Assembly: GCA_903840315.1 (NCBI GenBank) | Contig: CAIMFK010000005.1 | Location: 1 to 57,000, forward strand | Length of the DNA: 57,000 nucleotides | Origin: an uncultured Candidatus Saccharibacteria bacterium | GTDB taxonomy: Bacteria; Patescibacteriota; Saccharimonadia; Saccharimonadales; UBA4665 | Reading direction: 5' to 3' | Part shown: in pieces, positions 22,481 to 48,314 of the stretch | Position numbering within the stretch: the first letter of the stretch is position 1 | Layout: the number at the start of each line of letters is the position of its first letter | Position numbers and translations under genes: made by a program | Notes under the pieces: model-generated | Told to the model about the DNA's origin: nothing | The model's database searches: none | Seen by the model: the letters and a program-made list of their open reading frames with translations, nothing else

Positions 22481-22780
22481 ATGAATAAAACAGCCGCGCC
22501 AAAGACGACGTCGACTACTAAAACTAGTGATAATCAATCTGTTAACTCAGCTTTAATAGCACGTAGCAATTTTATTGCCGCTACAGTTTCTATGAGCTGG
22601 CAATTAGCTATTGTTTTTCTAATTCCTGTTATTGGGGGTTATGAATTGGACAAGGTTACCAAGACTTCGCCTGTGTTCTTTCTTATTGGATTTGTTCTTG
22701 CTATGACCCTTTCTTTTCTTGTTGTTAGGCGTTTTTATGTTGAGTTCAATAAGATCAACTCTCTGGGAGATAAGAAATAA
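22481..22780 (+). CDS. AtpI/AtpZ-like ATP synthase accessory membrane protein
   Basis: A 99-residue protein with a Thr/Ser-rich N-terminus and two membrane helices (about residues 40-55 and 63-85) joined by GGYELDKVTKTS. Its size, topology and position directly before atpB match the AtpI/AtpZ group, which assists c-ring assembly and possibly Mg2+ or Ca2+ uptake. The sequence is not diagnostic by itself; context drives the call. Its stop overlaps the atpB start (TAATG). Confidence 0.7.
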   Translation: MNKTAAPKTTSTTKTSDNQSVNSALIARSNFIAATVSMSWQLAIVFLIPVIGGYELDKVTKTSPVFFLIGFVLAMTLSFLVVRRFYVEFNKINSLGDKK

Positions 22781-23607
22781 TGTTTGGTCTTCTTGCGTTA
22801 TCGACTCCCCCAATCCACATTACTAGTGCATATTTATTTAAGATTGGTCCGCTCCTAATAACCAACTCAATTTTCTATGGTTGGATCTGCTCTATTATTA
22901 TGTGTACTCTTTTTATCTGGGTTGCGAGGAGAGTTACTGTTCATCCTCAGGGTGGATTGGTCCAGTTCATTGAAGCTGGTGTTGAATTTATAAGAAACTT
23001 AGTTGAATCCAGTTTTGAAGATAAAGAAAGATCATACAAGTATGTTCCTTACTTTGTGACTCTTTTCTTTTTCCTATTAATGAGTAACTGGCTTGGCCTT
23101 ATTCCAGGGGTTGGTGAATCATTTTTAAAGGGTGAGAATCCACTTTTCAGAGCATTTACTGGTGATCTTAACGCAACTCTTGCTGTTGGAATCATAACCA
23201 TGGGCTACGTCTATGCTTCGTCTATTAGAGAATCGGGTGCTAAAGAATACTTTGGTCACTTCTTTATAGGCAGCCCATTGAACCCCCTATATTTAGTACT
23301 TGGAATTCTTGAAATGTTTACTGATGCCACTAGAGTTATAAGCCTTTCGCTTCGATTGTTTTTGAATGTTACCATTGGAGAAATTATTATCGCTGTATTC
23401 TCTTACCTTGGAGGAATTGTAGCTCCACTTACTGCCGCACCTTTTACTTTGATGGAGCTATTTATATGTGCTCTACAAGCATTCATTTTTGTCATCCTAT
23501 CCGTGATGTATCTAGCAATCACAGTCAATCACTCTACTGAAGAGCACTTGACCGATGAAGATATAACTGAAACAATTAACGGAGATGCTAAGATGGCAAC
23601 ATCTTAG
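22780..23607 (+). CDS. atpB: ATP synthase Fo subunit a
   Basis: A 275-residue membrane protein that forms the proton half-channels. The essential Arg is in the SLSLRLFLNVTIGE helix (about residues 186-200), and the last helix carries the QAFIFVILSVMYLAI segment with its conserved Gln. LLMSNWLGLIPGVG is the conserved earlier loop. It converts proton flow at the c-ring into rotation. TAATG coupling with the AtpI-like gene and a 51-base gap to atpE. Confidence 0.96.
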   Translation: MFGLLALSTPPIHITSAYLFKIGPLLITNSIFYGWICSIIMCTLFIWVARRVTVHPQGGLVQFIEAGVEFIRNLVESSFEDKERSYKYVPYFVTLFFFLLMSNWLGLIPGVGESFLKGENPLFRAFTGDLNATLAVGIITMGYVYASSIRESGAKEYFGHFFIGSPLNPLYLVLGILEMFTDATRVISLSLRLFLNVTIGEIIIAVFSYLGGIVAPLTAAPFTLMELFICALQAFIFVILSVMYLAITVNHSTEEHLTDEDITETINGDAKMATS

Positions 23608-23658
23608 AATAATTGGATGAAAAATTTAATAAGTAAAAATAAGGAGAAGTAAATTTAA

Positions 23659-23889
23659 ATGTTAATACTAGCAGAAGTTACAAACGTAGCAATCATTGGT
23701 AAAGGTCTTATGATTGGTGGAGGTCTAATTGGACCTGCATTAGGAATTGGACTTGTTGGCGCAAGCTATATGCAAGCAGTTGGTCGTAATCCAGAAGCAT
23801 CTAAATTCTTAGGTCAAGCACTAGTTTTCATAGCTATTATTGAGCTAATGGCGCTTCTAGCATTCGCATCAATCTTCATCGTAAAATAA
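23659..23889 (+). CDS. atpE: ATP synthase Fo subunit c
   Basis: A 76-residue hairpin of two helices linked by the conserved polar loop GRNPEA. The ion-binding carboxylate is the Glu in AIIELMALLAF. The residues around it (no Ser-Thr after the Glu, no Gln in the Na+ position of helix 1 that I can see) fit a proton rather than a sodium c-ring. An AGGAGAAG SD site lies upstream. A glycine-rich helix 1 (GLMIGGGLIGPALGIGLVGA) packs the ring. Confidence 0.96.
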   Translation: MLILAEVTNVAIIGKGLMIGGGLIGPALGIGLVGASYMQAVGRNPEASKFLGQALVFIAIIELMALLAFASIFIVK

Positions 23890-23907
23890 GAAATTTATAA
23901 TTAAATA

Positions 23908-24432
23908 ATGAATACAACATATTTCGCGGACCAATCATCTGGCTTAGGCGCTTTTGGAGTTAATTTCCAGGCGCTAATTATTCAGATGTTAACTTTTCTG
24001 ATTGTCTATTTGGTACTTAGGAAATATGCTTTCAAGCCAATTCTTAAGGTTCTTAAGGAAAGACGAGATACTATTGAGGCCGGCCTAAAACTTGGTGCTG
24101 AGATGCAAAAGAAAAATGATGAGCTCAATGCCAAGACTGAAGAACTGCTCCATAAAGCTCAGAAAGATGCCGATAAACTTATTTCTGACTCGCGAGATGA
24201 AGCTAAGGCTATCGTTTCTGAGTCTGAAGAAGCAGCTAAAGCTAAGGCTGAAGGTATTCTAAATGATGCCAATAGAACTATTGAACAAAATACTCTAAAG
24301 GCTAAGAAGAAGCTCGAAAAAGAACTTGTTGGCCTTATCTCTGAAGCTACAGAGGCATTAGTTGGAGAAAAAATAGATTCAGAAAAAGATTCTAAGATTA
24401 TCGACGGCATTCTAAAAGGTAAAGAAGCTTAA
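23908..24432 (+). CDS. atpF: ATP synthase Fo subunit b
   Basis: A 174-residue stator protein: one N-terminal membrane helix (about residues 20-40: ALIIQMLTFLIVYLVLRKYAF) and a long charged coiled coil rich in Ala, Glu and Lys. It dimerises and links subunit a to the F1 head through delta. Length is normal. It lies 18 bases after atpE and 5 bases before atpH. Confidence 0.93.
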   Translation: MNTTYFADQSSGLGAFGVNFQALIIQMLTFLIVYLVLRKYAFKPILKVLKERRDTIEAGLKLGAEMQKKNDELNAKTEELLHKAQKDADKLISDSRDEAKAIVSESEEAAKAKAEGILNDANRTIEQNTLKAKKKLEKELVGLISEATEALVGEKIDSEKDSKIIDGILKGKEA

Positions 24433-24437
24433 TAGTA

Positions 24438-24833
24438 ATGAAAACTTCAATCTCTAGCTTATCCAGCATAATTTCAAAGAAAACCATTAGTGGTGGTCAA
24501 TCAAAGGATTTGCCTAAAGAAATCGCTGCGTATTTGCTAGATAATGGCCGAACTGGAGAGCTATCTTCTCTGCTTAGGTCTGTTCAGGAAGATTGGGCAA
24601 ATGACGGAAGAGTTGAGGCTACTGTAGTTTCTGCATTTAAAGTCAGTAAGACCACAGAAGCAGATATAAAGGCTGAACTTAAGAAGATATATCCAAGTGC
24701 CAAAAGCATAACTTTACTTTACGAAATTGATCCCAAGTTAGTTGGCGGACTAAAGATTAGTACGGCGAATTACCAAATGGATCTTAGTATGCTGAGTAAG
24801 CTAAGTAAATTTAAACAGTTAACCCTATCGTAG
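24438..24833 (+). CDS. atpH: ATP synthase F1 subunit delta (short form)
   Basis: At 131 residues it is about 45 shorter than the usual 175-180. The C-terminal region is recognisable: EATVVSAFKVS, then LLYEIDPKLVGGLKISTANYQMD (the conserved GG-x-x-I strand pair). The N-terminal helical domain that binds the tip of alpha is reduced. The gene position between atpF and atpA supports the call. The shortening suggests a modified peripheral stalk contact. Confidence 0.88.
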   Translation: MKTSISSLSSIISKKTISGGQSKDLPKEIAAYLLDNGRTGELSSLLRSVQEDWANDGRVEATVVSAFKVSKTTEADIKAELKKIYPSAKSITLLYEIDPKLVGGLKISTANYQMDLSMLSKLSKFKQLTLS

Positions 24834-24857
24834 AGATATAAGGAAAGGAATAAAGTT

Positions 24858-26410
24858 TTGAGCGAATTATCTATTAAAGAACTATCACAGGACATTAGAG
24901 CTGCAATTGAAGAACTGAAAGCTAGACCTGAAATTGAAAAAGTTGGAGTAGTAACCCGAGTTGGTGATGGTATTGCCTGGATTTATGGTCTCCGAAATTG
25001 TGGCTATAACGAAATTATTGAAATTGATGGTGAAAATAGCTCAAAACTAACAGCTTTTGCCTTCAACCTAGGTGAAGACGAAATTGGTGCTGTGATCTTG
25101 GGTGATGATTCATCTGTCAAAGCTGGAGCTAAGGTTCGACTGACTGGTAAGGTTATGGAAGTTCCTATTGGTCCAGAACTAGTTGGCCGTGTTGTTGATC
25201 CACTTGGTAACCCTATTGATGGTGGAGCTCCAATTAATGCCAAATTAACTGCTAAAGTTGAGCAAACTGCACCTGGAGTATTGGATCGTAAGAGTGTTAA
25301 TGAGCCTCTTATGACCGGTATTACTGCTATTGATGCAATGGTCCCAATTGGACGAGGACAGCGAGAGCTAATCATTGGTGATCGTCAAACCGGTAAAACA
25401 GCAATAGCCATTGATACTATGATTAACCAGCACCGTCAAAAGACTGGCGTTATTAACATTTATGTAGCAATCGGTCAAAAGATGAGTAAAGTTGCTCGTT
25501 TAGTCGAGAGATTGAAGCGAGAAGGCGTAATGGATCAGACAATTGTGGTGGCTACTAGTCCATCTGACTCAGCTGCTCTTCAATACCTAGCTCCATATTC
25601 AGGTTGTGCAATGGGTGAATATTTCAGAGATAATAAAAAACACGCTCTAATTATTTATGATGATCTTTCAAAGCACGCTGTTGCTTATCGTCAGATGAGT
25701 TTGCTATTGAGACGCCCACCAGGCCGTGAAGCCTATCCAGGAGATGTATTCTACCTTCATTCAAGATTACTCGAAAGAGCCGCTAAATTAAGCGATAAAC
25801 TTGGTGCCGGAAGTCTTACAGCTCTTCCAATAATTGAAACTCAAGCCGGAGATATATCTGCATATATTCCAACCAATGTTATTTCAATTACTGATGGCCA
25901 AATCTTCATGGAAACAAACTTATTCTACCAGGGTATTCGACCAGCTATTTCGGTAGGTTTATCAGTATCTCGTGTTGGTGGAGCAGCTCAAACTAAGGCT
26001 GTTAAGTCTGTGGCTAAATCACTTCGTATTGACCTTGCACAGTTTAGAGAGCTTGCTGCTTTTGCTCAGTTCTCAACAGATCTTGATGCCGATACTCGTC
26101 AACGAATTGAAAGAGGTCAAAGATTAACAGAATTATTAAAACAACCACAGTACTCTCCTCAGGCTATCTGGGAAATGTATAGCTCATTACTAGCAGCAAC
26201 TGAAGGTATATTCGATAAAATTCCAGTCGAAAAAATAAAGGCTGCTGAAGATAGTCTACTTAGAGATATTAAGAAGAATCACCCAGATGTAATTAAGGCC
26301 CTAGAAGACGGCAAAGAACCAGAAGAGTCTATTGTTAATAAGATTAAGGCAGCAGCTGAAAAAGTTGCTTCAGGCTATAAATCAACTGAAGGAGCTGTGA
26401 GTAAAAATTA

Positions 26411-26411
<1 letters not shown>
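24858..26411 (+). CDS. atpA: ATP synthase F1 subunit alpha
   Basis: A 517-residue subunit with a non-catalytic nucleotide site: P-loop [11 protein letters not shown] (about residues 172-182), the [29 protein letters not shown] stretch and the arginine finger in [15 protein letters not shown]. The start is TTG with SD AAAGGAA 7 bases upstream; no better ATG or GTG fits the N-terminus [10 protein letters not shown]. Its stop overlaps the atpG start (TAATG). Confidence 0.98.
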
Positions 26412-28691
<2,280 letters not shown>

Positions 28692-28692
<1 letters not shown>

Positions 28693-36139: not shown

Positions 36140-37804
36140 ATGGATCAATTCGAAAAACTGCTAGAAGATAACGGCTTTAAGGGCGAGATAGACATGTCAG
36201 AAAAGTCTTTGGAGACTTATTCGCACGACGCAAGCCTATTTGAAATAAAGCCTCAAATGATTGTATTTCCTAAAGATTCTGATGATGTTAAGAAAATAGT
36301 TTCACTAGTCGCCGATAATAAACATAAAATTAAAGACCTATCATTAACTGCTAGGAGCGCCGGAACTTGCATGTCCGGTGGAGCTGTAAATGACTCCATA
36401 ATTATGGATTTCAATCGTCATTTTACTAATATCGAAAATGTTACCGATAAATCAGCTCGGGCTCAACCTGGTGTTTTTTTCAGAGATTTTTATGAAGAGA
36501 CTCGAAAGAATTTGGTTTTTATGCCTAGTTACCCAGCTTCAAGAAACCTTTGTACTATCGGCGGAATGGTAGCTAATAATGCCGGCGGAGAAAGATCGTT
36601 GGAGTTTGGCAAAACTGAGAATTTTGTCGAAGAGCTGAAGGTTGTTTTTTCTGATGGTAATGAATACGTAGTTAGACCACTCAATAAAATTCAATTAGTT
36701 AAAAAAATGGCTCAGAAAGATTTTGAGGGTGAGCTATACAGAAAAACATTTGATCTTTGTGAAAAGCATTATGATTCAATCAAGAGCGCAAAACCCAATG
36801 TTTCAAAAAACTCTATGGGATATAATCTTTGGGACGTTTGGGACCGCGAGACGGGCATCTTTGATCTTTGTAAGCTTATTGTTGGTTCCCAGGGAACCTT
36901 AGGTTTCGTAACAGATATTAAATTCAGAATGGTGCCTATAATGCCGAATTCAGGACTTTTGGTTCTATTTCTAAAAGACATTGATGATTTAGGTGAGATT
37001 ATACCTAAGGTTTTAGAGTCGAAACCATCAACTTTTGAGAGTTTTGATGACGCAACTCTCAAATTAGCAATACGTTTCATGCCTAGCTTTCTAAAAACGC
37101 TCGGACTCAAAAAATTCTTACATCTACTAATAAGCCTTATGCCAGATGGACTACAATTACTCAGAGGCGTTCCTAAGCTAGTATTAATGGTTGAATTCAA
37201 TGGAGCTACACCTCAAATTGTTAGAGAAAAGATACATAATCTTCATCAAGAGCTTGGTAAACATAGGGCTAGATATGAGATTAATGGTTTTGAAGAGGAT
37301 CCCACATACTATAAGAGTGAAAAGTTCTGGATACTAAGGCATGAGAGTTTCAATTTACTTAGGAGCAAGGTAAAGGACAAGCACACTGCACCTTTCATCG
37401 ACGATTTTGTAGTAAATCCTGAGTACTTAACTGAATTTTTACCCAAAATGAGAAAGATAATTACGAAATATAAACTTCTAGCTACTGTTGCTGGACATAT
37501 GGGTGATGGAAACTTCCACATAATACCACTTATGAAGCTTGATGATCTAAAAGAGCGGGCTAAGCTCTTGCCCGCGATGAAAGAAGTCGATAATCTTGTT
37601 TTGGAGTACAAAGGTAGCTTAAGCGGCGAACACAATGACGGTCTTGTTCGAGGTCCTTGGTTAAAGGATATGTACGGTGCCACCGTCCTTGGGTACTTTA
37701 AGAAAGTGAAAGAAATATTCGACAAAGACAATATATTTAATCCTCACAAGAAGTCTGATGCTGACTGGGATTATAGCTTCTCTCACATTCGAGACAATTT
37801 CTAG
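36140..37804 (+). CDS. FAD-dependent D-2-hydroxyacid oxidoreductase (D-lactate dehydrogenase/GlcD-like)
   Basis: 554 residues. An N-terminal PCMH-type FAD domain (LTARSAGTCMSGGAV, TIGGMVANNAGGERSLEFGKT, LIVGSQGTLGFVTDI) precedes an FAD-oxidase C-terminal domain with the metal and substrate motifs VAGHMGDGNFHIIPL (about residue 450) and SGEHNDGLVRGPWL (about 495). This family oxidises D-lactate, glycolate or similar acids and reduces quinone or a cytochrome. It lacks the GlcF-type Fe-S domain, so it acts as a single-chain membrane-associated dehydrogenase. Together with NDH-2 it would feed quinol to the bo3 oxidase. It shares a CTAG stop with the convergent kinase gene. Confidence 0.88.
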   Translation: MDQFEKLLEDNGFKGEIDMSEKSLETYSHDASLFEIKPQMIVFPKDSDDVKKIVSLVADNKHKIKDLSLTARSAGTCMSGGAVNDSIIMDFNRHFTNIENVTDKSARAQPGVFFRDFYEETRKNLVFMPSYPASRNLCTIGGMVANNAGGERSLEFGKTENFVEELKVVFSDGNEYVVRPLNKIQLVKKMAQKDFEGELYRKTFDLCEKHYDSIKSAKPNVSKNSMGYNLWDVWDRETGIFDLCKLIVGSQGTLGFVTDIKFRMVPIMPNSGLLVLFLKDIDDLGEIIPKVLESKPSTFESFDDATLKLAIRFMPSFLKTLGLKKFLHLLISLMPDGLQLLRGVPKLVLMVEFNGATPQIVREKIHNLHQELGKHRARYEINGFEEDPTYYKSEKFWILRHESFNLLRSKVKDKHTAPFIDDFVVNPEYLTEFLPKMRKIITKYKLLATVAGHMGDGNFHIIPLMKLDDLKERAKLLPAMKEVDNLVLEYKGSLSGEHNDGLVRGPWLKDMYGATVLGYFKKVKEIFDKDNIFNPHKKSDADWDYSFSHIRDNF

Positions 37805-38826
37805 GACTTTTTAAGTGGCAATGTTATTAAAATGCTTGTCCCTTTATTGAGATTGCTGGACACTGCTATGGTTCCATCATGGAGTTCTACTATGAATTTT
37901 GCCAATGGCAAGCCAAGACCATATCCACTATCGTTTCCAGGCTCTTTTGTTCTTGATCTTTCAGCTCTATAAAATCTATCAAATATATATGGCATATCTT
38001 GATTTGATATGCCTATACCGTGATCCTTAACTTCTATAATTGCTGATGACTTCTTTTTTCTCGCAATTAAATCAATTGTAGAGTCATGATTAGAGTACTT
38101 GATAGCATTATCTATAAGGATTGAGACAGCCTGTATTAGATTGTCTTCATTGCCAAGAATGTGGAGTTTATCTGCATGAAGATTAATCACAATATTCTTT
38201 TTATCCGCAGCTTTAATATTATTTCTTCTAGCGATTGAAACCACTTTATCTAATGCAATATCTGTGAATAATTTCTTCAAATCCTGATTTTCAAGTTTTG
38301 AAATTCTCAGTAAGTTATTGGTCAAATTCTGCATTTTATCAATTTCTTCGAGGTTGCTTTTTAGGATATCTCTTAGCTCTTCGTTAGAAAGAGTCGGGTC
38401 TATCAATGCAACCTCAGATTCAGTTTTCATGGCAGAAAGTGGTGTTCTAAGCTCATGACTAACGTCACTCGTAAACCTTGCCTGCTGTTCATGGGCAGCC
38501 TCTAAAGGTTGCAGGGCTCTCTTAGCAAGAGCATAAGAACCAACTCCGGCAATACCTGCAGCGAATATATTGAAATACATAAGGCTTACTAATAAGTGGT
38601 GAGATCTAAGATTTATTTCATCATCAGTACTCGCTGGAATGATTCTTTTGTTCTTTTTTATGATATTTCCGTACATGTCTATTTCAATTCTTTTGTATTG
38701 ATTTATTAGGCCAGTAGAAATTTCTCTATTAGATATCTGATAAAGAAGAAAACTGAAAAACAAACAAAGACCTAAAATTGTAGCTAAGTACCAAAGTGTT
38801 AGTTTCAGAAGAGCAGATTTAAACAT
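37801..38826 (-). CDS. Two-component sensor histidine kinase
   Basis: 341 residues: membrane helix near the N-terminus (about 10-30), a short extracytoplasmic loop, a second helix (about 78-98), then the dimerisation/phosphoacceptor region FTSDVSHELRTPLSAMKTE, N box LIDNAIKYS, F box YIFDRFYRAERSR and G2 box GYGLGLPLAKF. The sensor loop is only about 45 residues, so it may sense a membrane or small-molecule cue. Coupled to the response regulator upstream by TAATG. Confidence 0.95.
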   Translation of the reverse strand: MFKSALLKLTLWYLATILGLCLFFSFLLYQISNREISTGLINQYKRIEIDMYGNIIKKNKRIIPASTDDEINLRSHHLLVSLMYFNIFAAGIAGVGSYALAKRALQPLEAAHEQQARFTSDVSHELRTPLSAMKTESEVALIDPTLSNEELRDILKSNLEEIDKMQNLTNNLLRISKLENQDLKKLFTDIALDKVVSIARRNNIKAADKKNIVINLHADKLHILGNEDNLIQAVSILIDNAIKYSNHDSTIDLIARKKKSSAIIEVKDHGIGISNQDMPYIFDRFYRAERSRTKEPGNDSGYGLGLPLAKFIVELHDGTIAVSSNLNKGTSILITLPLKKS

Positions 38827-39506
38827 TATTTATTACTCAATTTATATCCAAAACCTCTTACAGTTTTAATTATGCTACTTTCTTTTGGAAAAGGCTTATC
38901 TATTTTATTGCGTAGATATCCGATGTATACCTCTACAGTATTTGGCAATATATCTGAATCGCCATCCCATACATGATTAATAATTGCTTCTTTCGTTAGT
39001 ATCTGATTTGGGTGGCGCATCATGTACTCGAGTAATGAGAATTCCTTAGCAGCTAGCTGTATATCAACTCCAGATCGTTTAACCTCATAGCTTCCTGGGT
39101 TTAGTTCTAAATTGGAAACTTTTAGTATTGTTCCAATGCTCTTAACAGGTCTTCGGAGCAAAGCTTTAATTCTCGCGAGTAATTCATCAAAAGCAAATGG
39201 CTTAACTAGGTAGTCATCTGCTCCGATGTTTAAGCCTTGGACTTTATCATTCAATGTTCCCTTTGCTGTTAGAACTAAGATAGGAGTGCTTATGTTTTGA
39301 TCTCTTAATTTATTGACTACGTCTAGACCGTCCATGCCACCAGGCAACATTCTATCCATAATTATGAGATCATAATCTGAATCAAGCCCATAAGAAAAAG
39401 CACTCTCGGAATCGTGCACCATATCAGCTGCGTATCCTGAGAGTTCTAGGCCCTTTTTTATTGAGCTAGCAATTTTTAACTCATCTTCAACTATCAAAAT
39501 CCTCAT
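38826..39506 (-). CDS. OmpR/PhoB-family response regulator
   Basis: 226 residues: receiver domain with acidic pocket (VEDE at the start), phosphoacceptor Asp in DLIIMDRMLPG, Thr and Lys in VLTAKG and DDYLVKPFAFDEL, and a C-terminal winged helix (LAAKEFSLLEYMMRHPNQILTKEAI, VEVYIGYLRNKI, IKTVRGFGYKL). It would act as a transcription factor under control of the adjacent kinase. Its target genes are unknown; adjacency to respiratory genes is suggestive only. A TATAAT box (39515-39520) lies 8 bases before the ATG. Confidence 0.95.
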   Translation of the reverse strand: MRILIVEDELKIASSIKKGLELSGYAADMVHDSESAFSYGLDSDYDLIIMDRMLPGGMDGLDVVNKLRDQNISTPILVLTAKGTLNDKVQGLNIGADDYLVKPFAFDELLARIKALLRRPVKSIGTILKVSNLELNPGSYEVKRSGVDIQLAAKEFSLLEYMMRHPNQILTKEAIINHVWDGDSDILPNTVEVYIGYLRNKIDKPFPKESSIIKTVRGFGYKLSNK

Positions 39507-41669: not shown

Positions 41670-42533
41670 TCAAACAAATACTTTTGAATAGGATAAAACT
41701 GAAAAAATTAAAAGTATGTATAGAGAATATTTAAAATCCTTTTTTGCCCATAAATTCTTATTCTCAACACTTAATCCGTTCACTGCAAAAATTATCCAAG
41801 CAAATGATACTAGGCTCATAACTACAAAGAAAAAAGTATCAATATAGCTAAAATAATAAAGTCCAAAAATAGATAAAGAGTAGGCCACGGTATATGCAAT
41901 AGATTCATATTGGGTTCTTTTTATCCCCTTAATAACGCTTAGTAACGGAATTTTGGCTTTAAGGTATTCATTTTTTCTATATATAGCAATTGCATAGAAA
42001 TGCGGCATTTGCCACGTTGTCATTGAAATAAATAGCATTAATGCAAATAAGTCAAACCTGTCGGTGTATGCCGTGTATCCAGCAACTATTGCAGCTGATC
42101 CAGATATAGTTCCTATAAGCGTACTGTGAGTGCTCCTTCTCTTAAAATATGAATATAGAATTACATAATCTAAAAAGCCAGCTATACCTACAATGATCGT
42201 TGCAATACTAAAATAAATAGAAATTAGTGAAAATCCAATTGTGCCGAGAATCACAGCATAGGTAGCAGCATCTTTTATTGCAATTGAATTCATAGCTAGA
42301 GCTCTATTCCTAGTTCTTTCCATTTTAAGGTCAATATCTCTATCCAATATATTATTCAATACACAGGCTGAGGCTATTATGAAAGTCGTAGATATTAGTA
42401 TTAATAAGAATCTACTGAGAATAAAGTTTTTTCCGGCAACGATAGTGTAACCTGCTGCGCAGCTGATTAGATTGCCGTAAATAATTCCTGGCTTTGTTAG
42501 CTTATACCATTCCTTAAGTCTTTTAGAGTCCAT
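41670..42533 (-). CDS. cyoE: Protoheme IX farnesyltransferase (heme O synthase)
   Basis: 287 residues with seven to nine helices of the UbiA prenyltransferase superfamily. The prenyl-diphosphate/Mg2+ motif is NNILDRDIDLKMERTRNRAL (about residues 65-84), and the second acidic region near the middle contains MPHFYAIAIYRKNEY. It makes heme O, needed by bo3-type oxidases, from heme B, so the cell must obtain heme B. Overlaps cyoD by 11 bases. Confidence 0.93.
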   Translation of the reverse strand: MDSKRLKEWYKLTKPGIIYGNLISCAAGYTIVAGKNFILSRFLLILISTTFIIASACVLNNILDRDIDLKMERTRNRALAMNSIAIKDAATYAVILGTIGFSLISIYFSIATIIVGIAGFLDYVILYSYFKRRSTHSTLIGTISGSAAIVAGYTAYTDRFDLFALMLFISMTTWQMPHFYAIAIYRKNEYLKAKIPLLSVIKGIKRTQYESIAYTVAYSLSIFGLYYFSYIDTFFFVVMSLVSFAWIIFAVNGLSVENKNLWAKKDFKYSLYILLIFSVLSYSKVFV

Positions 42534-42870
42534 CTTGGCTCTGATTATACTTAACCATATCGTTACTCGATGGCATCATATGAGAGTTAAGATTATTCAT
42601 TATCCAAACACTACCCGTAACAAGAATTATTATAATTAGCATAATTAAAGAAGCTATTATCAGCCTATATCTATCTTTCTTTTGTAGGGATAAATGTAGG
42701 AAATATATTCCTTGAATTACTAATTGGCTGAGTGCCAAAACTCCTATTACAAAAATTTCGTAATAGTTAGTTTTACCCGATGATGATGTTGCTATTGAAT
42801 ACGCGCCAAAAGATAGGAATATGCAGCTTACAAAACCAATCAAATAGTTGTGATATCTTTCTTTTATCAT
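42523..42870 (-). CDS. cyoD: Cytochrome bo3 ubiquinol oxidase subunit IV
   Basis: 115 residues, three membrane helices (about 8-28, 38-58, 72-92). The size, topology and position between cyoC and cyoE match CyoD, an assembly and stability subunit. QLVIQGIYFLHL is the conserved second-helix segment. Overlaps cyoC by four bases and cyoE by 11. Confidence 0.85.
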   Translation of the reverse strand: MIKERYHNYLIGFVSCIFLSFGAYSIATSSSGKTNYYEIFVIGVLALSQLVIQGIYFLHLSLQKKDRYRLIIASLIMLIIIILVTGSVWIMNNLNSHMMPSSNDMVKYNQSQDGL

Positions 42871-43454
42871 AGTCCCATATGTCCCATTAAATAAACTACA
42901 CTAAATATAAAAATCCAGACAATATCAAGAAAATGCCAAAATAAATTGAACATAACTAAACCTTTCATAGATTTAATGGTCAGACCTTTTATTATGATTA
43001 TAAAACTGAGTACGATCATCCAGATTAGTCCTATAATTATGTGTAATCCATGAGTACCAACTAAAACAAAGTATGATGATAGGAAGCCACTTTCCCGCCA
43101 GCTATCACCTATTGCTACAAGATGATTAAATTCCCTGATTTCTAAGAATAAGAAAATTGTGCCAAGAATAAAAGTTGCTAGCGTCCAAAATAAAATCTTA
43201 TTTTTGTTTTTATTAAGAGCGGAGATTATTGCAAGACCACTTGTTAAGCTACTCGATAAAAGTATGAGAGTTTGTGTCAATGCTAGAGGCATTGAAAAGA
43301 GCATCTGTGCCGAGGCTCCACCATTCGTATTAGAATGTAGAGTTGCGTAAACTGCAAACAAGCTCGCAAAAACTACACAGTCAGTTAATATATATATCCA
43401 AAAGCCTAAGTAGGTCTTAGAATTTTCGGCTTTTATTGCTAGATTATTATCCAT
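42867..43454 (-). CDS. cyoC: Cytochrome bo3 ubiquinol oxidase subunit III
   Basis: 195 residues, five membrane helices as in quinol-oxidase subunit III (aa3 types have seven). Recognisable features are GFWIYILTDCVVFASLFAVYATL at the N-terminus, the conserved Glu in FLFLEIREF and HGLHIIIGLIWMI. The final helix HFLDIVWIFIFSVVYLMG is canonical. It is coupled to cyoB by TAATG. Confidence 0.95.
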   Translation of the reverse strand: MDNNLAIKAENSKTYLGFWIYILTDCVVFASLFAVYATLHSNTNGGASAQMLFSMPLALTQTLILLSSSLTSGLAIISALNKNKNKILFWTLATFILGTIFLFLEIREFNHLVAIGDSWRESGFLSSYFVLVGTHGLHIIIGLIWMIVLSFIIIIKGLTIKSMKGLVMFNLFWHFLDIVWIFIFSVVYLMGHMGL

Positions 43455-45430
43455 TACTTAGCCTCTCCATAAAATTTCATATCATCACGTATTAGGCTTT
43501 CTTTGGTAATAATATATTCCGTATTTTCATCCAATGTACGAATAATAATTGATGAAAAAATTAAAATTAATCCAATTATTGATAACCAAAATATATGCCA
43601 AACTACACCGAAACCGAATGAAAATGCACCGGCTGAAATAAATAATCCCAAATAACTATTTTTGGGCATGGATATATCACTGTAATTCAATTCTACTTTT
43701 CTGTTGGTTTGTTTTAAGTCCCAGAAATCATCAGGCTTTTTTATCGTAGGCAAAACTGAGAAGTTATAAGATGGAGCTGGTGATGGAATCGACCACTCTA
43801 AGGTTCGACCATCCCAGGGGTCACCGGTCTTATCTCTATAGTCTAGGTGTTTGTATATGCTGTAAGCAACCTGCGCAACAATAGCTAAAAGACCAGATCC
43901 AATGATAAGAACGCCAACACCCGCGACAATAAATAATGGTTGCCAACCCATTGATGCTGAATAATGATCCATCCTTCTAGTAGCTCCCATTATTCCCAAT
44001 GCATATAAAGGGACAAAAGCTACAATGAATCCCAGTATCCATAAATAAGCAGCAATCTTGCCCAATTTTTCATTAAGTCTAATGCCAAAAAACTTTGGAA
44101 ACCAGTACACAATACCGGCAAAATAACCAAACAGAACTCCGCTAACAATCATTGTATGAAAATGCGCTACTAAGAAAAGACTATTGTGTAGCTGGAAATC
44201 TGCTGGAGGGACTGCTAATATTACTCCAGCTACTCCTCCTATGGAAAATAGTAATATGAAACCTATGAACCAAATCATAGGTGCGCTGAATGTAATTCTG
44301 CCCCTGAACATAGTAAATAACCAGTTAAATATTTTTACGCCAGTAGGTATGGCTATAATCATGGTCATTATTCCAAAAAATCCATTAACGTCAGCTCCTG
44401 CTCCCATAGTGAAAAAATGATGCAACCAAACAGTAAATGAAAGGATGACTATAGCCCAAATTGCCCATACCATGGATTTATAGCCGAATAATTTCTTCCT
44501 TGAAAACGTAGCGACAATTTCTGAGAAAATACCAAATGCTGGAAGTATAAGTATGTATACCTCTGGATGACCCCATGCCCAAATGAGATTCACATACATC
44601 ATAGGGTTGCCTCCTCCGCCACTAGTGAAGAAATGTGTTCCAATGAGCCTATCTAGAGCAAGTAAGGCTAGTGTGGCAGTAAGGACTGGGAAAGCGAATG
44701 TTACAAGAGTCATTGAGCCTAGAATGCTCCAAACAAACATCGGCATTTTCATGAGATTCATGCCCTTTGCTCTTTTTGTTAAAATAGTAACTATAAAATT
44801 AATGCCAGATAAAAGACTGCCTACCCCTGCAATTTGTAGACTCCAAATCCAATAATCAACTCCTACTGTGGGGCTGTATTGCAGCTCACTAAGAGGTGGA
44901 TAAGCCAACCACCCTGCACCAGAAAAATCTCCAATCGCCAAAGAAGTATTAAGTAATATCATTCCTGCTGCAAAAAGCCAAAAACTTACTGAATTTAGCC
45001 ATGGGAAAGCAACATCTCTAGTTCCTATCATTAATGGCACAGCAAGATTGATAATTCCAAACATTAATCCCATTGCAGCAAAAAATATCATTGTAGTACC
45101 ATGTGATGAAAATATTTGTTGATAGTGAGACGACGATACTATTCCATGATGATTGCCTACAGATAATGCTTGCTGCGTTCGCATTATAAGAGCATCGAAA
45201 CCTGCTTTAGAAAGCATAAGTACGGCCACCACTATATACATTATTCCAATTTTTTTATGATCAAGTGATGATAGCCACTCTTTGAACAGCCAACGCCACT
45301 TCTTAAAATAAGTTAAACCCAATATTACAAAAATTACAGAAAGACTCATAATGGCGACACCAATATTTTGAATTAAGTCATGTCTGAATGAATCAATATT
45401 TAAAAGTCCGAGTAAATTTGCTTCAATCAT
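43454..45430 (-). CDS. cyoB: Cytochrome bo3 ubiquinol oxidase subunit I
   Basis: 658 residues, as in E. coli CyoB. The A1-type proton-channel motif WGHPEVYILILPAFG has the key Glu and Tyr/His; the binuclear-centre HH is in VWLHHFFTMGA; the heme ligands are in HGTTMIFF and HNSLFLVAHFHTMIVSG. Quinol-site residues compare as follows with E. coli: Asp75 conserved (FDALIMR), His98 and Gln101 conserved (HYQQIF), Arg71 replaced by Lys. It reduces O2 to water and pumps protons. The presence of the quinone residues argues for quinol, not cytochrome c. Confidence 0.97.
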   Translation of the reverse strand: MIEANLLGLLNIDSFRHDLIQNIGVAIMSLSVIFVILGLTYFKKWRWLFKEWLSSLDHKKIGIMYIVVAVLMLSKAGFDALIMRTQQALSVGNHHGIVSSSHYQQIFSSHGTTMIFFAAMGLMFGIINLAVPLMIGTRDVAFPWLNSVSFWLFAAGMILLNTSLAIGDFSGAGWLAYPPLSELQYSPTVGVDYWIWSLQIAGVGSLLSGINFIVTILTKRAKGMNLMKMPMFVWSILGSMTLVTFAFPVLTATLALLALDRLIGTHFFTSGGGGNPMMYVNLIWAWGHPEVYILILPAFGIFSEIVATFSRKKLFGYKSMVWAIWAIVILSFTVWLHHFFTMGAGADVNGFFGIMTMIIAIPTGVKIFNWLFTMFRGRITFSAPMIWFIGFILLFSIGGVAGVILAVPPADFQLHNSLFLVAHFHTMIVSGVLFGYFAGIVYWFPKFFGIRLNEKLGKIAAYLWILGFIVAFVPLYALGIMGATRRMDHYSASMGWQPLFIVAGVGVLIIGSGLLAIVAQVAYSIYKHLDYRDKTGDPWDGRTLEWSIPSPAPSYNFSVLPTIKKPDDFWDLKQTNRKVELNYSDISMPKNSYLGLFISAGAFSFGFGVVWHIFWLSIIGLILIFSSIIIRTLDENTEYIITKESLIRDDMKFYGEAK

Positions 45431-45433
45431 AGA

Positions 45434-46318
45434 TTACATCCCCATTGCTTTACTCATATTATCATCTGTAGCGTTATATTTATATAGTATGCTTTTGTAT
45501 AATTCTGGTGAAACGAATGAGTAGCTGAACGGCGTTACATTTTCTGTGGGTTTTGCAAGCTGATCGTAGGAAGTATTATTTAGTACTCTTGAGGATAATC
45601 TGGTATCTTTCACCCAATTATTGTATTGTGACTGGTTAACGACATTTACATCAAAAAGCATGCCCGCAAAACCTTCTCCGCTTATATTTGCAGATCTGCC
45701 CGAATAAACTCCCAATTTATCAGACATTATGCTGAGCTTTGTATTCATTCCAGGCATAGCATAAATTTGACCACTCAATTGAGGTACCCAAAAGGAATTC
45801 ATTGGTGCGTCTGCGGTGAGTTCAAAATTAATAGGAGTATCTTTTGGAATATATATTGCATTAACAGTGGCTATTCCCTCTTCAGGATAAATAAAAAGCC
45901 ACTTCCAATCCATTGCTACAACCTGGATATTAATTGGTTTTGTAGAAGAATTAATTTTTTTATATGGGTCTAGATCATGACTGCTTTGCCAAGTAACTAT
46001 CGAAAGAATAAAAATCAAAATTGTAGGTATTAGCCACCAAACTGATTCAACGATTCTACTGCTTCCAAAATTGGGACTATACTTTGATGATTTATTATCT
46101 GCTCTATATTTTATTGAGAAGAAAATAAGCATTATATAAACTGGTAACAAAACAAAAAGTGATAAAAATAGTGAGAATAGAATCAATGATTTTTCTTTAC
46201 TCGCTATTATCCCGGCAGAATTGAAAACTTGTGCATTATGACTAGAAACATAAATAACGATTGAAGCTATAAAAAATAATGGCACTGAAATTAATGCAAT
46301 TATTTTAAAAAACTTCAT
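45434..46318 (-). CDS. cyoA: Cytochrome bo3 ubiquinol oxidase subunit II
   Basis: 294 residues: a signal/anchor helix (about 5-27), a second helix (about 45-68) and a cupredoxin domain (PINIQVVAMDWKWLFIYPEEGI, then MNSFWVPQLSGQIYAMPGM). The CuA-binding Cys and His residues are absent, as expected for a quinol oxidase. The lipobox Cys of E. coli CyoA is also missing. A TATAAT box (46345-46350) and an SD (GAGGGAGAG) indicate a promoter of its own with a short leader inside the longer WhiB-cyo cluster. Confidence 0.95.
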   Translation of the reverse strand: MKFFKIIALISVPLFFIASIVIYVSSHNAQVFNSAGIIASKEKSLILFSLFLSLFVLLPVYIMLIFFSIKYRADNKSSKYSPNFGSSRIVESVWWLIPTILIFILSIVTWQSSHDLDPYKKINSSTKPINIQVVAMDWKWLFIYPEEGIATVNAIYIPKDTPINFELTADAPMNSFWVPQLSGQIYAMPGMNTKLSIMSDKLGVYSGRSANISGEGFAGMLFDVNVVNQSQYNNWVKDTRLSSRVLNNTSYDQLAKPTENVTPFSYSFVSPELYKSILYKYNATDDNMSKAMGM

Positions 46319-46344: not shown

Positions 46345-46350
46345 ATTATA
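46345..46350 (-). promoter_or_regulatory. TATAAT box and leader of cyoA
   Basis: TATAAT on the minus strand with about 26 bases to the cyoA ATG and a purine-rich SD just before it. This is one of the leadered genes and would allow the oxidase to be made independently of the WhiB genes. Confidence 0.5.
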
Positions 46351-46371
46351 ACATTAATTTATAACAAATGT

Positions 46372-46650
46372 TTATTTTGTTCTAACTATGTTGAGTTTTA
46401 GATAAAGCACATAAGAAGCTGCAAACAATGATGTATAAGCCAGTCCTGCATAACAACTACTCACAAGATTTGCGTTGAAGGCCAAAACAAGAACTGTGCC
46501 TGTAGCCAATATGCCTATCATTGAATATGATGAGTATTTCGCGAAAAGACTAGACTTATTACTTCCAAGATACTTTAAAATACTAGCTGATAGAATTAGC
46601 GGTAGACATGTCAGCGCAAAAATAATGTGAACAATTAGCAATATAACCAT
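46372..46650 (-). CDS. Small membrane protein ahead of cyoA, 92 aa
   Basis: Three hydrophobic helices (about residues 2-22, 40-60, 66-86) with a conserved-looking His near the start (IVHIIFALTCLP). No family recognised; size and position could suit an oxidase assembly or heme-handling factor. It lies 9 bases after the first-listed WhiB gene stop and 53 bases before cyoA. A GATAAT box (46659-46664) sits 8 bases before its ATG. Confidence 0.6.
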   Translation of the reverse strand: MVILLIVHIIFALTCLPLILSASILKYLGSNKSSLFAKYSSYSMIGILATGTVLVLAFNANLVSSCYAGLAYTSLFAASYVLYLKLNIVRTK

Positions 46651-46659
46651 AAACTTATA

Positions 46660-46968
46660 TTATCGTAATCTTCGTGTACATGCAATTCTATTTCTCTCAT
46701 CTGGGGTAGTCCCTCCCCACACACCATTACTCTCTTGATTAAGGATTGCGAAGTCTAGACACAAATCTTTTATTTCACAATCAGCACATATTTTTTTTGC
46801 TTCTTTTATTTTGCTTGAATCGAATTCAAAGAATAATTCCACTCCTTTATCCTTGCAAGCTGCAGAACCTAAATTATTCACCAGCCTATCGTAAGCTATA
46901 AGTCTACGAGTTTCTTGGCTGAAATTAATTGGGCTTGAATCCTCTGAGTTATTTTTCTCGTGAATCAT
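46660..46968 (-). CDS. WhiB-family Fe-S transcription regulator (102 aa)
   Basis: The WhiB domain is complete: Cys38, then Cys61-x2-Cys64-x5-Cys70 (KKICADCEIKDLCLDFA), which bind a [4Fe-4S] cluster, followed by the G-V/I-W-G-G turn NGVWGGTTPDERNR (residues 81-94) and a basic C-terminus (CTRRLR) for DNA contact. WhiB proteins sense O2, NO or redox state and act with sigma factor. The family is regarded as actinobacterial. Its ATG overlaps the upstream WhiB gene by 20 bases and has a GAGGG SD, so the two are co-translated. Confidence 0.9.
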   Translation of the reverse strand: MIHEKNNSEDSSPINFSQETRRLIAYDRLVNNLGSAACKDKGVELFFEFDSSKIKEAKKICADCEIKDLCLDFAILNQESNGVWGGTTPDERNRIACTRRLR

Positions 46969-47422
46969 TTTCCCTCGATTTTATGATCTTTTTTCTCTCA
47001 GAAGGGGTTTTGCCACCCCAAATACCATGTTTTTCGGATCCATCAATTGCGTATTCTAAGCATAATTCTGCAATTGAGCATCCTGCACATATTTTTTTAG
47101 CATCACTATCAGACTCATATTGTTCAGGAAAAAAAATTAACGGATCAAATCCTTTGCAGTTTGATTCATCGGATCGCTTTATGAATTCTCTCTGATTTTC
47201 TGTTAATTTTGTTGGATGACTATCACTACTTTTACGGCTATTGCCGCTTGCGACCAAATTAGCTAAAGTATACCCGCCAATACCGAATCCCATTCTTAAA
47301 TTTATTGAGATAGGAGTATCTACTATATTGACTCTATTAGCTTCTATGTCACGTATAGTAAACGCAGATTCAATCAATTTATCCTGATCAATTTTACTAA
47401 TCCGGTTTTCTTTATCTCCCAT
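46949..47422 (-). CDS. WhiB-family Fe-S transcription regulator with N-terminal extension (157 aa)
   Basis: Second WhiB domain: Cys89, Cys112-x2-Cys115-x5-Cys121 (KKICAGCSIAELCLEYA) and HGIWGGKTPSERKK, then a basic tail (KKIIKSREN). Unlike the 102-residue copy it has an N-terminal extension of about 85 residues with a helical region (DQDKLIESAFTIRDIEANR) that could be a partner-binding module. The frame opens upstream (47455), but the ATG at 47422 with an AAGGAG SD 4 bases before it is chosen. It is divergent from the rhodopsin gene and heads the cluster leading to cyoABCDE. Confidence 0.88.
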   Translation of the reverse strand: MGDKENRISKIDQDKLIESAFTIRDIEANRVNIVDTPISINLRMGFGIGGYTLANLVASGNSRKSSDSHPTKLTENQREFIKRSDESNCKGFDPLIFFPEQYESDSDAKKICAGCSIAELCLEYAIDGSEKHGIWGGKTPSERKKIIKSRENDSREK

Positions 47423-47510
47423 AATACTCCTTATATTAGATAACAATATTAACATATTTGATAGACTTGCAAATAGTATAGTTTTATTAAATGATGTTAG
47501 AGCTTAAGTA

Positions 47511-47539
47511 TTGTCGTGCCTAAATTATTATGCTTTAAT
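47511..47539 (+). promoter_or_regulatory. Promoter of the rhodopsin gene
   Basis: TTGTCG at 47511-47516, 17-base spacer ending in TGC, and TTTAAT at 47534-47539 give a sigma-70 promoter with extended -10. The predicted leader of about 50 bases ends in AGGAG (47587-47591), 6 bases before the ATG. This gene is thus leadered, unlike most lone genes here. Confidence 0.55.
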
Positions 47540-47597
47540 TCTAGTAACATTAATATTAAAATAATTAGTGTTTATAAATATTAAATAGGAGTTAGAA

Positions 47598-48314
47598 ATG
47601 GAACTTACATCAACAGTAACTAACTGGCTATGGGTCGGATTTTTCGGCATGCTAGTCGGTACGGCTATGATCTACTTGCTTGGATCTACGCTTAAGGCAA
47701 CAGAAAAATACCACGTATATACTGCAATGGCAATTACAACAATTGCTGCAATTGCTTATTATGCAATGGCAAATAACCAAGGTATCTTCATGATTGGCGG
47801 AAAGCCACTTTTCTTGGCGAGATATTTGGATTGGCTAGTAACAACACCCCTTCTTTTAATAAGTCTTTTCTTCTTGGCTTACCCTGCTGATAAAGATGCA
47901 GTTGGCATTAGACAGAAATTAGGTGTAATTGCTTCAGCAGTATTTGCAGATATTGTGATGATAGTTACTGGCGCGTTTGCTAACCTATCAGGTGGCCACG
48001 ACAATAAGGTTTTTTGGTATGTAGTAAGCTGTGTAGCTTTTCTAGTAGTGCTTGGAGTTATGTATGGTGCAGTTCGTAATAGCGCTATGAGTCTTGGACG
48101 AGGCCCAGCAAAACTTTACAGCAACTTATTAACCTACTTGATGGTACTTTTCTTTATTTACCCAATTGTTTGGCTGATTAGTACAAGTGGAGTTGGCTCA
48201 ATAAACCTTGGAACTGAAGTTGCGATTTACGCAGTATTAGACCTATGTGCTAAGGCTGTGTTCGGAATATTGATTGTATTATCGCTAAAGGGCGAAAAAG
48301 CTATCGACAAATAA
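47598..48314 (+). CDS. Type-1 (microbial) rhodopsin, probable outward proton pump, DTS motif
   Basis: 238 residues, seven helices. The helix C signature is ARYLDWLVTTPLLLIS: Arg75, Asp78 (proton acceptor), Thr82 and Ser89 in the bacteriorhodopsin 82/85/89/96 positions, i.e. D-T-S rather than D-T-D or D-T-E. Helix G has Asp215 and the retinal Lys219 (LDLCAKAVFG). Helix F keeps YPIVW. Leu86 sits at the proteorhodopsin spectral-tuning site, which predicts green absorption. Tyr141 fills the helix E position where antenna-binding rhodopsins have Gly. It lies divergent from the WhiB genes. Confidence 0.95.
   Translation: MELTSTVTNWLWVGFFGMLVGTAMIYLLGSTLKATEKYHVYTAMAITTIAAIAYYAMANNQGIFMIGGKPLFLARYLDWLVTTPLLLISLFFLAYPADKDAVGIRQKLGVIASAVFADIVMIVTGAFANLSGGHDNKVFWYVVSCVAFLVVLGVMYGAVRNSAMSLGRGPAKLYSNLLTYLMVLFFIYPIVWLISTSGVGSINLGTEVAIYAVLDLCAKAVFGILIVLSLKGEKAIDK

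Follow-up and report, generated by a model that had tools for sequence, protein, structure and literature searches.

A review describes WhiB proteins as exclusive to Actinobacteria and cites WblP of plasmid SCP1, a Wbl protein fused to an ECF sigma factor (PMC6282962). Binding of M. tuberculosis WhiB3 is abolished by the replacement of SigA H516 with Ala, and the equivalents of F17, F18 and W60 are required for sigma binding (PMC10245118). WhiB7 also lacks the cluster-shielding Trp, which leaves it with an exposed and more O2-sensitive cluster (PMC10245118). Oxidase genes of CPR bacteria derive from Proteobacteria according to published trees (PMC9166423). We analyzed a DNA stretch of 57,000 nucleotides (the window) that represents an entire contig of a 751-kb, 98% complete Saccharibacteria genome, and which harbors two adjacent genes, W2 and W1, for the sole WhiB proteins of that genome.

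W2 comprises 157 residues (46949-47422, minus strand) with the WhiB domain at about residues 75 to 157, and W1 comprises 102 residues (46660-46968, minus strand). Both open reading frames match the Pfam family PF02467 (Whib), W2 with 63.1 bits (E = 4e-17) and W1 with 66.2 bits (E = 4e-18), about 40 bits above the curated cut-off of 23.6 bits. W1 also matches WhiB and WhiB1 among PDB sequences; its PPR-type PDB matches were rejected as a repeat artefact. A C-xn-C-x2-C-x5-C pattern is formed by C38, C61, C64 and C70 in W1, and by C89, C112, C115 and C121 in W2. The four Cys are invariant across the six cyo-linked WhiBs, namely W1 and W2 of three species. Both proteins contain the G[I/V]W[G/A]G beta turn (GVWGG and GIWGG), and the FF pair and Trp that correspond to WhiB1 F17, F18 and W60, which contact sigma region 4, are found in W1, W2 and the sister-species copies. 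The AF2 model of W2 displays a pLDDT above 90 from about residue 70, and Foldseek matches to this model with E below 0.001 are WhiB proteins only, including WhiB3, WhiB and WhiB1 (E = 2e-5 to 3e-4, TMt 0.73-0.81). W2 is predicted by this model to adopt the Wbl fold and, judged by their sequences, W1 and W2 are genuine WhiB-family proteins. The two complete WhiB domains of the original prediction are confirmed by the PF02467 scores, the four Cys and the G-V/I-W-G-G of both proteins, including the match to the Whib model that it had named as decisive. It had also suggested that an extension of about 85 residues on one copy binds a partner. The extension is present in W2, but a folded partner-binding domain is not supported, residues 1 to 65 being modelled as disordered with low pLDDT. 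Outside the WhiB domain the six proteins diverge fast. W2 has a basic tail; the W1 orthologue of sister species G002 is without one.

The W2 start is an ATG with AAGGAG upstream, an alternative longer ATG at 47455 being less likely. The last 20 nt of W2 are also the first of W1, whose start is preceded by GAGG; this makes the proposed translational coupling plausible in the window species, whereas the genes are 11 to 16 nt apart in the sister species. The next gene encodes a small membrane protein of 92 residues with conserved His/Cys/Cys (46372-46650, minus strand), found at the equivalent position with 59-60% identity in two sister species. It shows weak similarity to DUF420 (best E = 0.0034), with no confident family match, and is probably an oxidase-assembly-type protein. 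It is followed on the minus strand by cyoA (45434-46318), with a TIGR01433 score of 278.1 bits, which exceeds the NCBIfam equivalog cut-off, and cyoB (43454-45430), with a TIGR02843 score of 967.6 bits, just under the cut-off of 1020.35, and a PF00115 match. The open reading frames of cyoC (42867-43454), cyoD (42523-42870) and cyoE (41670-42533), also on the minus strand, keep their order in G002. By these matches cyoABCDE are predicted to encode a cytochrome bo3 quinol oxidase. Divergent from W2, a type-1 rhodopsin gene lies on the plus strand (47598-48314; PF01036 172.4 bits); its sequence contains a DTS motif (RYLDWLVTTPLLLIS). Pfam matches at 22780-28692 of the window identify genes for subunit a, subunit b and two alpha/beta-type subunits of an F-type ATP synthase, so that ATP synthase, oxidase and rhodopsin are found on one contig.

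The order of rhodopsin, W2, W1, small membrane protein, cyoA and cyoB is identical in three species of the genus (the window genome, G001 and G002). It runs on through cyoC, cyoD, cyoE and lepB in the window genome (G000) and G002, and the G001 contig stops within cyoB. Identity between the window and sister species is 34-45% for the WhiBs, 54-65% for the rhodopsin, 54% for CyoA and 74-82% for CyoB. The predicted arrangement, with the WhiB pair heading the cyo genes on one strand and the rhodopsin divergent, was therefore correct and is kept in three species. The assignment to Saccharibacteria also agrees with the G002 contig, deposited as uncultured Candidatus Saccharibacteria bacterium, isolate Umea3p3_bin-0045. 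None of the 14 other Saccharibacteria cyo clusters checked has a WhiB upstream of cyoA, and the rhodopsin genes of six further genomes of the order have neither WhiB nor cyo beside them. The rhodopsin-WhiB-cyo block is thus a wiring of this genus. In another relative, G017 (L390), a similar-looking 92-residue protein is encoded upstream of cyoA in the opposite orientation.

A rhodopsin promoter is predicted at 47511-47539 on the plus strand (TTGTCG-N17-TTTAAT, with TGC before the -10), with identical spacing in the three species. A 13-bp block, TTATGCTTTAATT, at 47528-47540 is identical in the three species and is located mostly inside this predicted promoter; none of 2000 shuffles shares a 13-letter word. 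This block was rejected as a candidate WhiB operator, since the rhodopsin -10 (TTGTYG-N17-TGCTTTAAT) is the better interpretation. In the rest of the three genus genomes, every occurrence of the pattern has a mismatch within the block. On the minus strand, the predicted cyoA promoter consists of an extended -10, TGTTATAAT, at 46345-46353, without a recognisable -35, and is kept in the three species, each of which has a perfect extended -10, TGNTATAAT, 26-38 nt upstream of cyoA; in any one species the chance of such a match is about 0.002 in 60 nt. A weak extended -10-like element, TGTTAATAT, precedes W2 at 47446-47454 on the minus strand, where the sister species have TGNTANAAT; the element is weaker in the window. 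A generic promoter scan of the region returned no more sites than were found in shuffles, so it is the conservation in three species that argues for the predicted promoters. With this predicted promoter before cyoA, cyo could be transcribed independently of the WhiBs. At promoters without a -35 a partner of sigma region 4 could matter, yet such promoters can also work alone.

We searched for PF02467 among relatives and found matches in 32 of 60 sampled genomes. Across 380 evenly sampled genomes of the phylum, matches were observed in 18 of the 37 genomes of the window's class versus none of the 343 others (Fisher p = 6e-21). Among 14 named control genomes, Corynebacterium was the only one with a match. 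The restriction of WhiB to Actinobacteria and their phages, which the original prediction gave as the general view, thus does not hold: WhiB outside Actinomycetota is real, but it is a class-wide trait of Saccharibacteria and not a peculiarity of this genome. No prior report of WhiB in Saccharibacteria was found in the open-access literature, and a subscription paper may exist; a text search of PMC9296517 and PMC9166423, on the SacR rhodopsin and on CPR cyo operons, found no mention of WhiB. Several variants were observed in the class. Four consecutive WhiB genes are present in G055 (L037:6141-7888), tandem WhiBs occur at three further loci, and at six loci the WhiB domain belongs to a long protein (about 330-590 residues or more) with additional parts.

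A tree of the WhiB domain was built from 53 Saccharibacteria and 43 actinobacterial sequences; with 73-74 usable columns and long branches, its details are weak. A few mislabelled rows (G746/G747) were contained in the first tree and left out of a second. Some Saccharibacteria WhiBs group with class I, some with class II and some with an Acidimicrobiia group, and W1 and W2 lie on unsupported branches in both trees (73-74 columns; Wbl classes I-V). A topology with all Saccharibacteria sequences in one clade is rejected (p-AU = 0.0015), by a test that is subject to the same long-branch pull of the model as the tree itself. Because of this rejection, repeated exchange of WhiB between Actinobacteria and Saccharibacteria is likely, presumably in the direction of Saccharibacteria. 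The phylogeny thus supports the predicted acquisition in the form of repeated exchange with Actinomycetota. A viral origin of W1 and W2 was rejected, since the identity of phage and IMG/VR WhiBs does not exceed 54% within the matched stretch and no viral gene was seen at the locus. One 2.0-Mb genome deposited as Saccharibacteria (G746, L144) has actinobacterial-type WhiBs; it is probably mislabelled and was excluded from the argument.

In seven Saccharibacteria genomes of at least four families, a distance of 0.6-3.5 kb separates the principal rpoD gene from a WhiB gene, where a rough count would expect 0.5 such neighbours by chance (Poisson about 1e-6, kinship ignored). G013 encodes a 511-residue protein (L066:5766-7301) with sigma-70 regions and a degenerate C-terminal WhiB domain, 2.4 kb from rpoD. 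In sister species G002, a further WhiB gene abuts the gene for a 289-residue sigma-region-4 (sigma-like) protein (L035:324-2113). The proximity to rpoD, the fusion and the abutting sigma-like gene together support a sigma partnership of the WhiBs of this class. Region 4 of the window genome's RpoD reads KLRKH, with Lys at the H516 position, and LRKH (or LRRH, LKKH) was found in all Saccharibacteria genomes read, with or without WhiB. Region 4 of actinobacterial SigA, which we take to read KLRHP (usual LRHPSRS), aligns its H516 site to this Lys. The principal-sigma partner residue is thus absent in the window RpoD, which is a property of the partner and not of the WhiB, and the WhiB-sigma interface must differ from that of M. 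tuberculosis. A second RpoD-like match (C11) was rejected as an alternative sigma factor: it is of sigma-4/HARE-HTH type and occurs in nearly all relatives searched. At five of the loci with a nearby principal rpoD, the WhiB gene lies close downstream of it.

The Trp equivalent to WhiB1 W3, which shields the cluster, is absent in all six cyo-linked WhiBs and kept in 43 of 62 Saccharibacteria WhiBs (Fisher p = 4e-4, kinship ignored). With this Trp absent, as in WhiB7, an exposed and O2-sensitive cluster would be expected in W1 and W2. An O2-labile switch would be sensible at an oxidase, NO or other oxidants being equally possible signals. We infer that W1 and W2 would carry a [4Fe-4S] cluster and bind a sigma factor, and their DNA targets, signal and sign of regulation are proposed in the same sense.

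We regard it as reasonably probable that W2 and W1 are tandem Fe-S, sigma-linked regulators that form a local redox or O2 switch on the promoters of this island, including that of cyo and possibly that of the rhodopsin. Cluster-bound W2 and W1 would bind sigma region 4 where a promoter has a good extended -10 and no -35, at cyoA and probably at W2 itself. Attack of O2, NO or oxidants on the exposed cluster would abolish or change their activity, and expression of the terminal oxidase, perhaps also of the rhodopsin, would thereby track the redox state. W2 would be the likelier DNA-contacting member because of its basic tail, and a role as partner or modulator is possible for W1, given that the orthologue in one sister species no longer has such a tail. 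This proposal builds on the fold of W2, the motifs of both proteins, the three-species linkage, the conserved predicted promoters and the association of other WhiBs of the class with sigma factors. A function of W1 and W2 at cyo is likely from sequence. The Lys at the H516 position of RpoD and the fast divergence outside the domain count against it. So does the lack of any excess of WhiB-cyo co-occurrence across the sampled genomes of the order (23/32 versus 22/28, p = 0.77, three genomes being taken as cyo-negative for not being listed as positive), by which a general association is rejected. A transfer special to the energy module, as first proposed, is likewise not supported, since WhiB occurs widely in the class and in most cases away from cyo.

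The pair could instead be a general cell regulator or sigma partner with targets elsewhere, its neighbourhood being inherited from one ancestor of the genus. That W1 and W2 are the only WhiBs of the genome, that WhiB genes are frequent in the class at sites not linked to cyo and that the linkage is confined to three species of one genus all fit such a regulator. However, the order of the entire block is kept at 34-82% protein identity in reduced genomes and a small cyo-type membrane protein gene separates the WhiBs from cyoA, which leaves it a serious but unlikely alternative. It is improbable that the two-component system at 37801-39506 of the window is the main regulator of cyo and that the WhiBs regulate only themselves. 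A close homologue of its response regulator (65% identity) and the kinase do lie directly upstream of cyoA in G028 (L395:2000-3730), but in the window this system is located beyond cyoE and lepB, away from the cyoA promoter.

Some apo-WhiB proteins have been credited with thiol chemistry, and with the missing basic tail of the G002 W1 this would suit disulfide reductase-like redox enzymes or Fe-S/NO scavengers associated with the oxidase rather than transcription factors. The sigma-contact FF and the GxWGG are nevertheless kept in all six cyo-linked WhiBs, and WhiBs are sigma-linked in the class, so that we consider such a role very improbable. Contamination or misassembly with actinobacterial DNA, which the reported exclusivity of WhiB would suggest and which the original prediction had named as its refutation, has a negligible probability and is refuted: the arrangement recurs in three independent assemblies, two of them from further species, the GC content of W1 (36%) and W2 (35%) equals that of the window, and WhiB is found across the class, in some cases on contigs of 0.1-1.4 Mb.

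The known hosts of Saccharibacteria, which are ultra-small bacteria, are Actinobacteria. WhiB may thus be a marker of gene flow between episymbiont and host, as a supposedly Actinobacteria-only family is common in one class with actinobacterial hosts and absent from the sampled rest of the phylum. We give little credence to the wider reading that repeated uptake from these hosts created a shared redox-signalling language; in its extreme form some WhiBs would act on the RNA polymerase of the host, given that H516 is missing from their own RpoD and present in actinobacterial SigA. The local switch that we favor would provide a concrete regulatory system in organisms with poorly known gene regulation, located at a respiratory oxidase and at a light-driven proton pump. 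Since the Saccharibacteria sigma factor lacks a contact needed by known WhiBs, the locus also invites the question of how WhiB and sigma could rebuild their interface.

The best WhiB sequence match of both proteins is the class II WhiB of S. venezuelae (PDB 8dy7/8dy9; E = 2e-14 and 1e-11). They share with it the four Cys, the FF, the GIWGG and a similar spacing, and it is a Foldseek match for W2. They differ from it by the absence of the Trp before Cys1, the long disordered N-terminus of W2 and the linkage to cyo and rhodopsin. Together with Streptomyces WhiB, M. tuberculosis WhiB1 and WhiB3 are the best WhiB relatives of known structure. Like M. tuberculosis WhiB7 (PDB 7kif, 7kug), W1 and W2 have no W3 equivalent; unlike WhiB7, they have no recognisable AT-hook, a lower sequence similarity and a sigma partner without H516. 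WblP is a precedent for the sigma-WhiB fusion of G013, whereas that fusion involves a sigma-70-like protein and a degenerate WhiB motif, and the window pair is unfused. The window rhodopsin is of the same DTS type as Saccharibacteria SacR (PMC9296517), and the cyo operon is of the same kind as freshwater CPR cyo operons (PMC9166423). With an oxidase of a kind that published trees derive from Proteobacteria, a SacR-type rhodopsin and WhiBs with actinobacterial relatives, the island appears to be pieced together from different sources. The protein family is known; the phylum and the wiring, with rhodopsin and cyo on either side, are new.
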